Shown: positions 1 through 11,361 of the stretch, one piece after another
Layout of the letters: each line of letters starts with the position of its first letter
Numbering within the stretch: position 1 is the stretch's first letter
Assembly: GCA_004173455.1 (NCBI GenBank)
Contig: SECL01000020.1
Coordinates: 1-64,000, forward strand
Length of the DNA stretch: 64,000 nucleotides
Origin: Moraxellaceae bacterium
GTDB taxonomy: Bacteria > Pseudomonadota > Gammaproteobacteria > Pseudomonadales > Moraxellaceae
Direction: 5' to 3'
The notes under the pieces: generated by a model
Databases searched by the model: none
Told to the model about the DNA's origin: nothing
The model's input: the letters and a program-made list of their open reading frames with translations, nothing else
Program-made: the position numbers and the translations under genes

Positions 1-405
1 TTTATACAGTAAACTTTCTTTGTCAATATCACCTGACAAAATAACATCAAAATCAGAACCTGTTAAGCTTAATTGCTGAAGCACAAATAAGAGGTAATAA
101 TTAAAGTCATCGGGAGTGCTTATCGGGAAAATGTTGTAGTATTTAACAATATGATTATCAATAAGCAAAAACTCGAATGACGAATCGTTGAACTGTAAAA
201 TGAGTTTTTCACCCTGATAGTTGTACATAATTCCATCTATCAACGGTTCTGCCTGCGAGTATACTTTTGCTTCCGGATACGCTTCAAATAACGTTTCTGT
301 CAACTCTTCCTGCAAAGTAAAAGCGTTCATTATGCCTGCTTTGCGGATAAGATTTACTGCAATTTTATCTGAAGGATTTTTGGCAAAAAGGCTTTTATAG
401 ATAAA
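1..405 (-). CDS. DUF3822-like protein, internal fragment (cut by window edge and by a junction)
   Basis: A minus-strand frame is open from 405 (in-frame TAG at 406-408) to base 1 and reads as a real protein, with phrases such as NPSDKIAVNLIRKAG, NAFTLQEELTETLFEAYPEA and DDFNYYLLFVLQQL followed by LSGDI. From memory of the family, the hydrophobic DFxYYLLFxxxQL stretch followed by a LSGxI strand is typical of DUF3822 (actin-like ATPase fold, unknown function), which is described from Bacteroidota. Protein-like sequence extends upstream of the only ATG (328-330), so the true start is missing and the gene is cut near 400, right where the next gene's leader begins. The C-terminus lies outside the window. 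Nothing else here looks like Bacteroidota, so this is either contamination joined in assembly or a foreign insertion. Family call moderate; coding status fairly sure. Confidence 0.55.
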
Positions 406-434
406 CTACATTCAATGCTAAAAGGACTTAGTTT

Positions 435-2597
435 ATGAATAATGAAGAAATACGAAATAGCTTTAGAAATAGTAATTGGCTTAAAGATCCTTTTTATTGG
501 TTTAGTTGTATAAGTAAAATATACGATACTGATGAAGGATTTTCAAGAGAATTAGTTGTTAGAGCTTTAGAAAATAAAAATTTTTTATCTGACATATATA
601 AAGATATTTTAGATGAGCTAGTTGTTCAGGTAGGTCTATATCCATACATAGTTAATCTCCATGGATTAAGTTTTAGAAATGCTCTAATACATGCTTCTCA
701 CAATATTAATGGTGTAATGAGTGACTATACATTACATCGTGCGCAATATAGAATATTGGGAAGACTTTTAGATGGTGAATCTATCATTTTAAGTGCTCCT
801 ACTTCTTTTGGTAAGAGTTTATTAATAGATGCATTAATTGCTATTAAGAACTTTGAAAATATTGTTTTAATACTACCAACGCTAGCATTAGTTGAAGAAA
901 CTAGAAGAAGAATGTCAAAATTTTCACAATTTTATTCTATAGTTACTTCAAGTAATCAAAAAATTACTAAAAATAATATATTTGTTTTAACACAAGAAAG
1001 ATATTTATCTATGCATGATAAAATTTTTAAAGTAGACTTTTTTGCTATTGACGAATTTTATAAATTATCTATTGATGGTGATGGAAGTAGAGCTACTCAG
1101 CTTAATCAAGCATTTTTTAAGTTATTAAAAACCGAATCTCAGTTTTATCTTTTAGGTCCTTCTATAAAAGCTATATCTCCTAATATTACTCAAAAATTAA
1201 AATGTAATTTTATTATTGAGGATTTTCATACAGTTGCTGTTGAAGTAAATTATCTAACTAAAAAACCTAATAAAATAGAGTCTTTAGCTGCTTTTTTGGA
1301 CAAAGAAAATGAACCAACTATGGTTTATTGCCAGTCTCCAAAAAGTACTCGAGAACTTATAAGGGAATATCTGAAAATACGTGAATTACCTATCTCTAAT
1401 GATCCAGAAATAATTGAGGCTGCAAAATGGACAGCAGAACAGTATCATGATCAATGGTTAGTTTCTGTTGCGTTAAGATATGGGATAGGAGTACACCATG
1501 GTAAATTACCAAGAGCATTAGGTAGATTCATGATTCGAGCTTTTGAAGAAGGAAAACTAAAAATATTATTATGTACATCTACTTTAATTGAAGGCGTAAA
1601 TACTACTGCTAAAAATGTTATCATATTTGATAATAAATTAAATCGTAAACTACTAGCTTTTTTTACTTATAATAATATAAAAGGTAGAGCAGGTAGAATG
1701 TTTAAACATTTTGTTGGTAAGGTCTACTTATTTGACCCTCCTCCTGAGGAAAATTTACCATTTGTAGACATGCCTATTGTAAATCCAACTCTTGATACGC
1801 CAAGTAGTATTTTAATTCAGTTTGATCGAAGTGATGTTCCTCCCAATCTAATTCAAAAATATGATGGTTTTAATATTCAAACAGAATTACCTTTTAGCTT
1901 ATTGAAAAGTAATTCTGGCATAGAGCCTGAATTTTTAATCAATACGGCAAGGCATTTAAACAACTTAAATATTCATTACTTAATGAAGTTATGTTGGAGT
2001 TCTAATCCATCTTATGAACAACTGTTATTTTCCTCTGAAATTATATGGTCAGAATTAGGTGGGAAAAGCTTTGCTAAACCAATGTCTTCTGCAAAAATGA
2101 TGACAAAGTGGATTAGTGATCTCTACCATTCTCGCAGCGTTACTAAATTTAGAAGTGTAAAAATTCAAGAACAAATTAATTATTATAAGAATCCAAAATC
2201 ACCAGATGATGCAGTAGAAGATGTCTTAAGTTTTTTGAGAAATTGGGCTTCTTTTAATTATCCTAAATATCTTATGACATTAAATGATATAGCTAATCAT
2301 ATTCTTATAAAGAAGGGTTACTCTAGTTGTAATTATAGTTACTTCGCAGCCACAATTGAAAATTTATTTCTACCTGACTCTTTTTCTATTTTAGAAGAAT
2401 ATGGTTTAGCTTTTGAAGTTGCTGAAATGTTGATTAAAAAGCGTGTATTTAATAAAGATGATAATATTGATGAAATATTTAATAGACTCAAAAAAAATGA
2501 AATTTCTAGATTTGCTAGCGGTTTATTTGAAAAAAGAATGATTGAGGATTTTCAAGTGGGTATTGGACAAAAAATAGATAAAAATATAATTACGTAG
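435..2597 (+). CDS. SF2 DEAD-like helicase, HamB/AbpB-like (Hachiman-type defence helicase)
   Basis: A 720-residue superfamily 2 helicase. Seen: Walker A APTSFGKS (121-128), motif II DEFYK (206-210) in place of DEAD/DEAH, a GVHHG block (352-356), STLIEGVN (382-389) and motif VI GRAGR (417-421). The C-terminal 300 residues match nothing I recognise. The APTSFGKS plus DEFYK pair is what I associate with HamB of Hachiman and AbpB of E. coli AbpAB, whose partner is a DUF1837 nuclease (HamA/AbpA) encoded just upstream. Here the upstream DNA is only about 30 bases and then becomes a foreign fragment, so the partner is missing or was cut away. The ATG is preceded by AAAGG at a good distance. The gene is very AT-rich, unlike the core genes. 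Helicase call is firm; the HamB assignment is inference. Confidence 0.65.
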   Translation: MNNEEIRNSFRNSNWLKDPFYWFSCISKIYDTDEGFSRELVVRALENKNFLSDIYKDILDELVVQVGLYPYIVNLHGLSFRNALIHASHNINGVMSDYTLHRAQYRILGRLLDGESIILSAPTSFGKSLLIDALIAIKNFENIVLILPTLALVEETRRRMSKFSQFYSIVTSSNQKITKNNIFVLTQERYLSMHDKIFKVDFFAIDEFYKLSIDGDGSRATQLNQAFFKLLKTESQFYLLGPSIKAISPNITQKLKCNFIIEDFHTVAVEVNYLTKKPNKIESLAAFLDKENEPTMVYCQSPKSTRELIREYLKIRELPISNDPEIIEAAKWTAEQYHDQWLVSVALRYGIGVHHGKLPRALGRFMIRAFEEGKLKILLCTSTLIEGVNTTAKNVIIFDNKLNRKLLAFFTYNNIKGRAGRMFKHFVGKVYLFDPPPEENLPFVDMPIVNPTLDTPSSILIQFDRSDVPPNLIQKYDGFNIQTELPFSLLKSNSGIEPEFLINTARHLNNLNIHYLMKLCWSSNPSYEQLLFSSEIIWSELGGKSFAKPMSSAKMMTKWISDLYHSRSVTKFRSVKIQEQINYYKNPKSPDDAVEDVLSFLRNWASFNYPKYLMTLNDIANHILIKKGYSSCNYSYFAATIENLFLPDSFSILEEYGLAFEVAEMLIKKRVFNKDDNIDEIFNRLKKNEISRFASGLFEKRMIEDFQVGIGQKIDKNIIT

Positions 2598-3133: not shown

Positions 3134-6094
3134 TTATTTAATAATATAATAAGTTTCGGCATGTAAAGTCTGTTTAATAATACATGCCAACTGACCTAAT
3201 ACAGATTGAACACGAGAGTTAAGTTCAGAATAATCTAGGCTTGGCTGAACTAATACCATTTCTATAGTAATGTCATAAGTTCTATACTTTTTAATTAAAG
3301 CATCTAAATCAGACATTTGACCTAATATGAATCGAGTCTTTTTAGTTTTTTTGTAAGTATTATTCTCTCTAATTTTTAATTGTTTTAATGCTTTTACTGC
3401 ATCAGATAGTTTATCACAAGTCGAAAGGGTTTGCTGAACCAGTTCATTCACAGCTCCAATAGACGACTTTGTGCCAATAGCATATTTACAATGATATAAA
3501 CGCATACATACTTTTTTTTGTTCTTCATTAACCCAAAATCCTACTAAATCAGCAAGTTCATTACTGCCATCATCATAGAACAAGATATTGGGTTTGTTTT
3601 CTTGAGATTGAAGTAAATCAATTATTTTACCTTGAACAGAGTTTTTCACTGTTCCAAATTTCCAACTTTCTTTATTTGTATCAACCCCATGCCAATCCAA
3701 TTCTGTCACATTATTTTTAACTAATGTGTAAGAATATTTAGTCTTATAACCAAATTTTTCATTTAAACTAATTACTTCAAAACTTGAAGTCCAAGCAACA
3801 AGGCCAAGCTTTGTGGGTAATTCTTTAATAAAATCCAATTCGCAATTAAGTTTTATTCCATTACAAGTTTCAGAAATTAGAATAAATCCATTAGTTAAGC
3901 CATACTCATAATCAAACGTACAAAAATAGTCATCTTCAAAATAAATTTTTATGGAAAAATTTATTTTCTCTTTATCTTGCTTAACATCTAAAATTTCATA
4001 AAAACTAAAATTTAATATTTTTGAGCCTAACTCTCCTCTAATGCGTATCAAATTAACAGCCTTAGAAATTAAATCTACAGGTGAGATGGTTAGAATGTTA
4101 AAGTTCGCTAAATTTTCTACTATAAATGGCTCAAGCATATTATTAAGAAATGAGTCAACAGGAATCATATTATTATGAATTTTATCATATAGAGATTCAC
4201 ACCATTTGACCCATTGATACAGATTGGCGCTAGACATTGACCATGTGATACCTTTCCTAGAGCACCCTAAACTAGCTTTCTTCCCATCAATGTAACCATG
4301 ACCAAACAAATTTGATAGTGCACTATTATTTAAATCTTGCTGTGTTAATTCTTTATAGATATCTGTACCAGTAAACATTCTAAATCTTATATTTCTAGAT
4401 GTTGCTAAAATACCTAAGTTTGCAAAGGCTGAACGATCTAGATTATAAAATATCCTAAATAGCTCAGGAAAACTAAAGTTAACATAGCCTAACTCTTTTG
4501 CTAAATTCTGAACCAAATCCTTATTACTTCCATGAATAAATAAGTCAGTGCCTTTTTTTAGGAATATGAATATGTCGAACAAATCAAATTGCAACTCATC
4601 ACTACACACCCATATGGGGGTAACTTTCTTTCTTGACAATATAATTCCTAAGTTATCATCCTTAAAAATTGCAGAAATATAATTATCAGATAGCTTATTA
4701 AAATATTTCTTTAGGTTATTTTTTTCAAAAATATCATTAATATCCTCGTCAATTTCTTTGTAAATTGTCGCACTATTTTTAATATAGAATGAATTCGATG
4801 AGAATAATTTTCTTATAAGTTCATGATTGTAATCACCCTCAATAGAGGAGCTAAAAAATTCCTCCACCATTTTTTCTTTACTTAAATTCCCAATTAATAT
4901 GTTCCAATCCGCATCAGCCTGATAAAGTTCTTGAAACTGTTCACCAATATCATCTGCAACTACATTTGAAATGATTGTTGCTTGCCCCAGTTTTTTTGTT
5001 CTATTAACCCTTGTGAAACGGCCAACCAATTGCATAAATATTGGCAAACTCTTACATTTTTTATGTAAAGCTAATATTTTTAAATTAGGTAAATCGTACC
5101 CTTCCCCAAACATATCAACACAAACTACTATTTTTGTTTTTCCTTCCTTTAGTTTAGTTTTATCCTCTTCATTTATTCCATCACGGCTAGTTGCCAGTAA
5201 GACTTCCATTTTTTTAGGGAAGTATTCTTTTATTAGTGATGTATATAATTTCTTTAACTCTCTTGCATGTTTAATAGTAGAGGTTTTTACCATAAGAACA
5301 TGCTCTAAACCAGCTAAACTATCTTTCTGCAATACTTCTAATGCTTTCCTTGCAACAACTCCATCGGATTTATCATCATAATATTCACTTACAGCTTCAA
5401 ATTGAATTTTCTCGAATATTCCTTCATCAAAAGCTTTTGCAATTGAATATTGATATATTAGTTTTCCTTCTAGTTTTTTACCATCCCCTCTATAAGGAGT
5501 TGCGGTAAACTGAAATATTTTCTTTTTCCTTTGGATAAAATTATTACGAAGTTTTTTCCAAGTTGGAGCTTCACTATGATGAGCCTCGTCAAAAATCAAC
5601 CTATCAAATTGGTTTAAAAAAATCTGCAAATTTTCATCTTGAAATGAATTAAAAATTTGTGATGTCGCAACTACAATAAATTGTTCTTTTAAGACATGTG
5701 GAACTATTTTATCAATATCTTGTGGTACTAACCTGGAAATAATAGGTTGCTCACTATTTTCAGGAATAACCCTCCAACCAATATATTTTTTTAGATCGAT
5801 TAGATCATCGCTTATTTGTTTTCGAAGAGAATCCGATGGAACAACGATTAGTGTTCTCTTGAACATTGCTTTAAAGAGTAATGATGCAATGACTCCTGTC
5901 TTTCCCGTTCCTGTAGGCATGTTAATGATTACAGGTTCTTCCTCATCATTTAAATCATGATCTAAACATTTAAGTAATGCAGACTTTTGAGATAGTCTTA
6001 AATCTGTTTCATGAATTTCTAAAGTTGACTTCCATGATAAAATTATCTGTTCTTTAGACTTATTACTTCTGGCATCAACTCTAACCAAACCCAT
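3134..6094 (-). CDS. DEAH-box SF2 helicase with long C-terminal region, possible nuclease domain
   Basis: A 986-residue protein of the SSL2/type III restriction-helicase class. Seen: Walker A MPTGTGKT (59-66), DEAH (169-172), motif III TATP (197-200) and motif VI QLVGRFTR (355-362). Helicase core is about residues 25-420; the remaining 560 residues are of unknown fold. Near residues 841-870 there is DDGSNELADLVGF, then a strand ending in LYHCK; an acidic pair followed by a hydrophobic strand with a Lys is the layout of PD-(D/E)xK nucleases, so a C-terminal nuclease is possible (D841/E846/D849 and K870). Such stand-alone helicase-nuclease proteins are common in defence islands. It is AT-rich, convergent with the HamB-like gene across the Fic relic, and has no obvious operon partner. 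Helicase call sure, nuclease part speculative. Confidence 0.7.
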   Translation of the reverse strand: MGLVRVDARSNKSKEQIILSWKSTLEIHETDLRLSQKSALLKCLDHDLNDEEEPVIINMPTGTGKTGVIASLLFKAMFKRTLIVVPSDSLRKQISDDLIDLKKYIGWRVIPENSEQPIISRLVPQDIDKIVPHVLKEQFIVVATSQIFNSFQDENLQIFLNQFDRLIFDEAHHSEAPTWKKLRNNFIQRKKKIFQFTATPYRGDGKKLEGKLIYQYSIAKAFDEGIFEKIQFEAVSEYYDDKSDGVVARKALEVLQKDSLAGLEHVLMVKTSTIKHARELKKLYTSLIKEYFPKKMEVLLATSRDGINEEDKTKLKEGKTKIVVCVDMFGEGYDLPNLKILALHKKCKSLPIFMQLVGRFTRVNRTKKLGQATIISNVVADDIGEQFQELYQADADWNILIGNLSKEKMVEEFFSSSIEGDYNHELIRKLFSSNSFYIKNSATIYKEIDEDINDIFEKNNLKKYFNKLSDNYISAIFKDDNLGIILSRKKVTPIWVCSDELQFDLFDIFIFLKKGTDLFIHGSNKDLVQNLAKELGYVNFSFPELFRIFYNLDRSAFANLGILATSRNIRFRMFTGTDIYKELTQQDLNNSALSNLFGHGYIDGKKASLGCSRKGITWSMSSANLYQWVKWCESLYDKIHNNMIPVDSFLNNMLEPFIVENLANFNILTISPVDLISKAVNLIRIRGELGSKILNFSFYEILDVKQDKEKINFSIKIYFEDDYFCTFDYEYGLTNGFILISETCNGIKLNCELDFIKELPTKLGLVAWTSSFEVISLNEKFGYKTKYSYTLVKNNVTELDWHGVDTNKESWKFGTVKNSVQGKIIDLLQSQENKPNILFYDDGSNELADLVGFWVNEEQKKVCMRLYHCKYAIGTKSSIGAVNELVQQTLSTCDKLSDAVKALKQLKIRENNTYKKTKKTRFILGQMSDLDALIKKYRTYDITIEMVLVQPSLDYSELNSRVQSVLGQLACIIKQTLHAETYYIIK

Positions 6095-9756: not shown

Positions 9757-9969
9757 ATGAAGGAAAATGATCCATATGTTCGTCCTAAACAAGCAGCGGC
9801 AAAAATTGGTATAGGACTCTCTACGCTAAATGACTGGACTAATCCCAAATCATCACGTTTCAAGTCCACGCTACCGGCAAAGATAAAACTGAGTAAATCG
9901 GTCGTTGTCTGGAGATTATCGGAAATAGAAGCCTGGATTGAATCTCATCGGGACACAACCACTAGCTAG
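9757..9969 (+). CDS. AlpA-family helix-turn-helix regulator
   Basis: A 70-residue winged HTH protein of the AlpA/MerR-like class: PKQAAAKIGIGLSTLNDW is the recognition HTH, followed by KLSKSVVVWRLSEIEAWIE, the wing and closing helix typical of phage AlpA. Relatives regulate integrase or excision genes of P4-type islands. It reads divergently from the unknown gene at 8486-9649 and lies upstream of the Gp2-like gene, so it probably controls island mobility or replication genes. Confidence 0.85.
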   Translation: MKENDPYVRPKQAAAKIGIGLSTLNDWTNPKSSRFKSTLPAKIKLSKSVVVWRLSEIEAWIESHRDTTTS

Positions 9970-10023
9970 GAATCTGACTGGATAACTCTGTACAAAAGCT
10001 GGACTGGTTTTCCCACGGTAAAA

Positions 10024-10123
10024 CGGCGTATCCGTAATATGGCTACGCCGGAAAGCTCATAGATCTGAATATTGTATTAATATTCAATTATTATATATAT
10101 CAATTACATATCTAATAATTGAA
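10024..10123. repeat. Cluster of inverted repeats upstream of the Gp2-like gene
   Basis: Three palindromes follow one another: CGGCGTA/TACGCCG (10024-10030, 10044-10050), TGAATATT/AATATTCA (10066-10073, 10079-10086), and an 11-bp pair TTCAATTATTA/TAATAATTGAA (10083-10093, 10113-10123). The last two lie in very AT-rich DNA. Such DNA ahead of a replication-initiator-like gene could be an origin or an operator set for the AlpA protein. Confidence 0.5.
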
Positions 10124-10172
10124 TTCATATCTGTTTGATAAATATAGATTAATTAAAGTAAGGGTAAATGCA

Positions 10173-10211
10173 ATGAATCTATCTACAAGACAAGTTTATC
10201 AAGCCACATAG
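10173..10211 (+). CDS. Possible 12-codon leader peptide
   Basis: ATG at 10173 has AAGGG upstream and opens a 12-residue frame (MNLSTRQVYQAT) that ends 13 bases before the Gp2-like start, which has its own GGAG. It may be a leader peptide or chance. Weak call. Confidence 0.2.
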   Translation: MNLSTRQVYQAT

Positions 10212-10224
10212 GAACAGGAGTTCA

Positions 10225-11361
10225 ATGAATGAAGATTTAGATTACTTTGAAAGTTATGATGATATTTCTACCTATGAGCTAACCAATGTCTTAAGCAGTG
10301 ATGCAGGGCTTTATTATGATGAGTTCAGTAAACCTATCTATTGTCCAGATCAGACGTTAGAACAAATATGTAATGTCATTATATTGGTTGAAAAGTTACA
10401 TGAATTTAAATCGCTGATATTACCTTATAAGTTGGTGAAATCAGCATTTGGTAATCAGCAGAGATATCAACTGCAACAAGAGTTCAGGGATTTACTTGCA
10501 TTCCTGAAATCATGGCAACCAGATCTGGATACCAGTCATTATGACTGTGAGCATTACAGGCTGTTTAAAGAAGTCTGTGATGAGGTAGGCATAGAAGCCC
10601 TACAGTTCCATGTTAAAGCCAGTGACTATATTGTCAATGGTGATGGACAACAGGTCATTGCTGCTGAGCATATTAATCAGTTTATTACTAAGCTGTGGAC
10701 AGCAGTAAGATCACCCGTCTTTAAAAAAATGATGAGTGATCGTCGTGACAAATCAAGGCATAACCTGAAATCAGGAATGCAATTGATTAACCGGTTATTT
10801 TTGCGTTATGCACGCTTAATGGTCTGCCGGATTGACTTGGCACTAAGGCCAGAATATCTGGAGGGTCAAACAGTCGAGGAAATGCAGGAGTATCTGCAAA
10901 GATTCCTCAACAACAGGCGTTCCAATGCCCTGTTTGACCAGATGGTGGGTTATGTGTGGCGGCTAGAATTTGGCCACAAGAAAGGGTTGCACTTCCATAT
11001 TATCATGTTCTTTGACGGCTCTGAGGTATACAAAGATGGCTACTACACGCAGAAAATCGGTGAATACTGGCGCGATAGCGTTACCAAGGGTAGAGGCTTA
11101 TTTTACAACTGTAATGCCAACAAAAGCCGATATCGTAAATTAGGCATTGGCATGATCAATCATGATGATGATGAAAAGATTGGCAATTTACATAAAGTCT
11201 TGGCCTACCTGACTAAAACATCACAATTTGTAATTGTGAAAACACTTGCAAACTATCGTTGCTTTGGGCGCTCTGAAATGCCAAGCCTGATAGGAACAAG
11301 TGGCGCTATCAAGCGTGGTAGGCCAAGACGTACCCCGTCTTCACCACCAAACCAGATCTAA
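10225..11361 (+). CDS. Inovirus Gp2 / YagK-YfjJ family protein (Rep-like)
   Basis: A 378-residue protein of the inovirus-type Gp2/YfjJ family found in filamentous phages and P4-like islands. The C-terminal half carries the family core: LMVCRIDLALRPEYL (about 195-210), VWRLEFGHKKGLHFHIIMFF (about 245-265) with an HxH motif like that of HUH endonucleases, and a final block with YRCFGRS and a basic tail (KRGRPRRTP). A role in rolling-circle-type replication or mobilisation of the element is inferred from the HUH-like motif and is not proven. ATG at 10225 has GGAG at the right distance. A hairpin (11368-11386) follows the stop. Confidence 0.75.
   Translation: MNEDLDYFESYDDISTYELTNVLSSDAGLYYDEFSKPIYCPDQTLEQICNVIILVEKLHEFKSLILPYKLVKSAFGNQQRYQLQQEFRDLLAFLKSWQPDLDTSHYDCEHYRLFKEVCDEVGIEALQFHVKASDYIVNGDGQQVIAAEHINQFITKLWTAVRSPVFKKMMSDRRDKSRHNLKSGMQLINRLFLRYARLMVCRIDLALRPEYLEGQTVEEMQEYLQRFLNNRRSNALFDQMVGYVWRLEFGHKKGLHFHIIMFFDGSEVYKDGYYTQKIGEYWRDSVTKGRGLFYNCNANKSRYRKLGIGMINHDDDEKIGNLHKVLAYLTKTSQFVIVKTLANYRCFGRSEMPSLIGTSGAIKRGRPRRTPSSPPNQI

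Follow-up and report, generated by a model that had tools for sequence, protein, structure and literature searches.

What does a fragment of a DUF3822 gene, of a kind otherwise at home in Bacteroidota, mean at the very start of a gammaproteobacterial contig? The stretch of DNA analysed here (the window, 64,000 bases) is C73:1-64000, and its base 1 is also base 1 of contig C73 (64,766 bases), which belongs to a genome of 80 contigs and 3.0 Mb with a listed completeness of 99.94 and a listed contamination of 0.09. The first-pass annotation had read the first 405 bases as encoding, on the minus strand, part of a DUF3822-like protein cut off just before the leader of a HamB-like helicase, and had offered either a chimeric assembly or a foreign insertion as the cause. 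Our analysis supports the former: we hold it very probable that the DUF3822 piece is contaminating DNA joined at an assembly gap inside hamA, an artefact and not a gene transfer, and the join is most likely not a biological feature. The features concerned are collected in Table 1.

Table 1. Features at the start of the window (positions are those of the window).
Feature	Position	Strand	Basis
Partial DUF3822 gene, Bacteroidota-type foreign tail	1..405	-	PF12864 profile match
Junction zone DUF3822/HamA	382..405		The two similarities overlap
Putative hamA 3' end, GKKAFIDKLHSMLKGLSL, stop TGA 436-438, 4-base overlap with hamB	382..438	+	Similarity to three HamA C-termini
hamB, helicase of the Hachiman (HamAB) system	435..2597	+	PADLOC HamB2; PF00270, PF00271

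The assignment to DUF3822 was borne out. The 135 open codons of the fragment correspond to the middle and C-terminal part of the family, matching profile PF12864 with an E-value of 6.6e-27 and 94.7 bits (curated cut-off 24.9). The match spans profile positions 97-232 of 241 and thus falls short of full length: about 96 N-terminal positions were lost at the junction, and the last 9 are absent where C73 starts, so that the left side of the fragment stays open. The best match found was to Desertivirga arenae (Sphingobacteriaceae), at 77% on the amino acid level and at 70% on the nucleotide level across window positions 1-395, followed by matches of 45% and 44% among 399 sampled genomes from the Desertivirga family, 83 of which carry a DUF3822 match at E<=1e-10. 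Neither this sample nor a search of the genus (3 genomes) yielded a donor nearer than the 77% of D. arenae, in which the DUF3822 gene adjoins a gene that we read by eye as rsmD. The term DUF3822 was not found in the literature searched.

Within the family of the window's own bacterium, which the first-pass annotation took to be Moraxellaceae, the picture is reversed, with a DUF3822 match in 1 of 199 sampled genomes, namely the window's own and at this place only, and none found in the other 198; a second genomic copy of the tail was not found either. Among 14 control genomes, Bacteroides ihuae was the only one with a match, and the observation is far above chance. The copy thus resembles the PF12864 family of Bacteroidota in its 135 residues over the curated cut-off and in its nearest relative, yet differs from it in lacking both of its ends and in being joined to the contig of a different lineage. 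We also considered DUF3822 as mobile cargo and rejected this idea on searches of phages (0 matches at E<=0.01), viral contigs (0 confirmed among 39 pattern stretches, with a single-protein query that finds close relatives only) and plasmids (1 of 72,556 records, from Bacteroides finegoldii at 26% identity).

On the other side of the junction, the helicase reading stood firm, with a match to the PADLOC HamB2 model PDLC00201 at E 4.1e-241 and with both PF00270 (DEAD) and PF00271 (helicase C) over their cut-offs, which identify the gene as hamB. The proposed leader did not hold: the ATG of hamB at 435 is overlapped by another frame, which runs as GKKAFIDKLHSMLKGLSL from base 382 to its TGA stop at 436-438 and has an upstream stop a few codons away. 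Compared without gaps with the C-terminal 24 residues of three HamA proteins, to which this test was confined, the 18 residues reached a summed BLOSUM62 score of 75 (38, 25 and a weak 12); none of 3000 shuffles and none of 1343 control 18-mers drawn from the window came up to this value. MAFFT, given the joined C67 fragment and C73 tail, did not place the 18 residues at the C-terminus unaided; on the ungapped test and a reading by eye, we take the segment for the 3' end of hamA. The local alignment to the D. arenae DUF3822 protein ends at 405 and the HamA similarity begins at about 382-385, placing the join within the short stretch that is compatible with both.

If the end of hamA lies directly before hamB, the remainder of that gene should be sought elsewhere in the assembly. 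A genome search returned a single PF08878 match over cut-off, at C67:106-675 on the minus strand (profile positions 1-190 of 230, E 3.5e-55), and a second match on C27 at E 0.9, under the cut-off. The C67 fragment also matches PADLOC HamA2 at E 2e-102 over positions 3-223 of 283, and the truncated gene faces the start of its contig. Among the PADLOC models, HamA2 and HamB2 match the two operon halves best. A relative, genome G100 (locus L006), carries the best family match for HamB, at 41%, and over 221 aligned residues its HamA shares 54% identity with the C67 fragment, more than any other of the seven loci compared. Taking the L006 frame (293 residues) together with the HamA2 model, we estimate that about 34-41 codons, or roughly 100-125 bases, separate the C67 fragment from the C73 tail.

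C67 and C73 are therefore very probably neighbours, joined within hamA across this gap. With hamA pieces at the starts of both contigs, we read the locus as one hamAB operon split by an assembly gap and bearing an unlike tail on either side. In known Hachiman anti-phage systems, HamA acts as the effector nuclease and HamB as the sensor helicase (PMC12278908). The present operon agrees with such systems in its HamA2 and HamB2 matches and in a 4-base overlap of hamA and hamB like that of plasmid locus L050 (hamA 1707-2387, hamB from 2384), and differs from them in being split over two contigs and in lacking the estimated stretch of hamA. C73 by itself shows hamB without hamA. Other genes of the window lie further downstream. 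A 986-residue ResIII/DEAD helicase protein is encoded near hamB at 3134-6094 on the minus strand, and its weak PADLOC likeness to type IV restriction enzymes (E 3.3e-13) makes a further defence gene possible. At 9757-11361 on the plus strand, a small protein that by eye looks like an AlpA-type regulator is followed by a YagK/YfjJ-type protein (PF11726), and the pair suggests a satellite-like integrated element.

The other contig of the broken operon ends in a foreign-looking tail of its own. C67 starts with about 95 bp (1-95) that are unlike its flank and end inside hamA. The GC content falls from 54% in the first 100 bases to 28% in the 300 that follow, and within this tail the HamA frame soon meets a stop. 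No nucleotide match to it was found in E. coli, plasmid and phage collections, and no protein match in plasmids; the search of 395 sampled Bacteroidota genomes gave 0 matches with a query of 25 residues, for which an empty result is uninformative. No Pfam family was found in the tail, one frame of which is weakly like the start of FabZ at E 0.044, under the cut-off. Besides the tail itself, the genome held only chance-level matches of 22 and 14 bases to it, and no convincing second copy.

How the contigs of this assembly end was examined by comparing 3,000 bases from each of 96 readable ends (48 contigs; the 32 short contigs read as N), with overlaps, GC and open frames tabulated. At 60 of the 96 ends, 71-119 terminal bases recur at another end (exactly 119 in 43 cases), which is the usual outcome when an assembly graph breaks at repeats and the word length is close to 119. 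Several multi-copy repeats, perhaps insertion sequences, are suggested by a few terminal sequences that turn up at numerous ends, again with overlaps of nearly 119 bases. The starts of C67 and C73 fall among the 36 ends without shared terminal bases, 31 of which do not share even their terminal 15 bases and 8 of which have a GC content of no more than 25% over the first 300 bases. By eye, the final 14 bases of C23 are identical to those with which C74 begins, and this looks like a further break for low coverage.

Contaminating DNA is probable elsewhere in the assembly as well. The sorting domain of type IX secretion (T9SS) is not known outside Bacteroidota and their relatives and is a hallmark of Bacteroidota. 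Contig C75 (3,058 bases) encodes an open-ended protein of 875 residues in which a CHRD domain is accompanied by a T9SS sorting tail; this tail scores over cut-off with both TIGR04183 and PF18962. C75 is the only contig found in the genome search with this domain over cut-off (a match on C52 stayed below). Of the 14 control genomes, 13 had weak hits to the T9SS model at E<=1 and 1 had a match over cut-off. C75 is thus a probable contaminating contig. In 300 Sphingobacteriales it had 0 matches at E<=1e-30, an empty result that is uninformative; with no match there, C75 may stem from another donor than the DUF3822 tail. C62, a contig of 5 kb, carries an IS110 transposase, a HepT-like/nucleotidyltransferase pair and lipoprotein-like frames; a reading of it by eye as Bacteroidota-like was unsupported by any family, and we do not count it as evidence. 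The situation at C73 is like the chimeric contigs and contamination of public genomes addressed by GUNC (PMC8201837) in that a single contig of a genome that is otherwise clean carries a foreign lineage, and differs from them in its small extent, some 390 bases at the end of a contig.

Combining these observations, we propose the following course of events. The real chromosome would carry a continuous hamA-hamB operon at this place, the assembly of which failed in AT-rich hamA, probably for low coverage, leaving the missing part of the gene uncovered. The gap ends of both C67 and C73 would then have been extended by unrelated foreign DNA present at a low level, so that the first 385-400 bases or so of the window would derive from a contaminating Bacteroidota genome whose nearest known relative is Desertivirga of the Sphingobacteriaceae. 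Exact overlaps near 119 bases were seemingly used in assembly, and a similarity of 20 bases alone would not join two sequences in the final graph, which points to chimeric library fragments or reads as the probable carriers of the junction; the joins are probably laboratory or assembly artefacts. Against a chimera count, besides the missing matches for the C67 tail and for C75 and the best nucleotide identity of 70% for the DUF3822 tail, the roughly 390 bases of the latter. A typical short read would not span them, and several contaminant reads or one merged fragment would be needed.

The insertion that the first-pass annotation had named as its other option would be a real Bacteroidota segment placed in hamA, either in this strain or in a subpopulation, and bounded by the C67 and C73 tails. 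Both hamA pieces do run into unlike DNA, just as an insertion would give, and little else favours it. The tails differ in GC, the first 100 bases of C67 standing at 54% against 34% in the first 300 of C73; family searches found no mobility gene in the scanned frames of either; and they lack matching terminal repeats, since no exact match between C67 1-200 and window 1-500, whichever the orientation, exceeds 10 bases. A second genomic copy was found for neither tail. In D. arenae the DUF3822 gene lies next to the gene read as rsmD, and DUF3822 was not found in the phages searched. The other foreign-looking sequence of the assembly, moreover, is a contig of its own (C75), and an insertion would also require the deletion of the roughly 100-125 bases of hamA. 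We therefore regard an insertion as quite unlikely. If true, it would disable the Hachiman system in this strain and would amount to a recent cross-phylum transfer of a Bacteroidota chromosomal segment without the signatures of a mobile element.

Still less probable, to a degree that we would scarcely entertain, is a DUF3822 gene that is native to this bacterial lineage or was anciently acquired by it. Nothing beyond its presence on the contig speaks for such a gene, the N-terminal part of which is missing and which breaks off inside hamA. Family members with a DUF3822 gene in this position, which the first-pass annotation had named as a refuting result, were sought in the 199-genome sample, and none besides the window's own genome was found. 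The chimeric junction, by comparison, fits all of these findings together: the position at a contig start, the hamA gene cut at the start of C67, the unlike tails, the T9SS-type contig C75 and the 0 of 198 other family genomes with DUF3822.

Recognizing a probable chimeric junction here averts a false report of gene transfer across phyla. It also offers a practical check, which is to seek the missing partner of an operon at other contig ends before a foreign junction is trusted. For the organism itself, the finding reunites a seemingly orphan HamB with its HamA partner on another contig, and the native HamAB system is probably intact and broken in appearance only.
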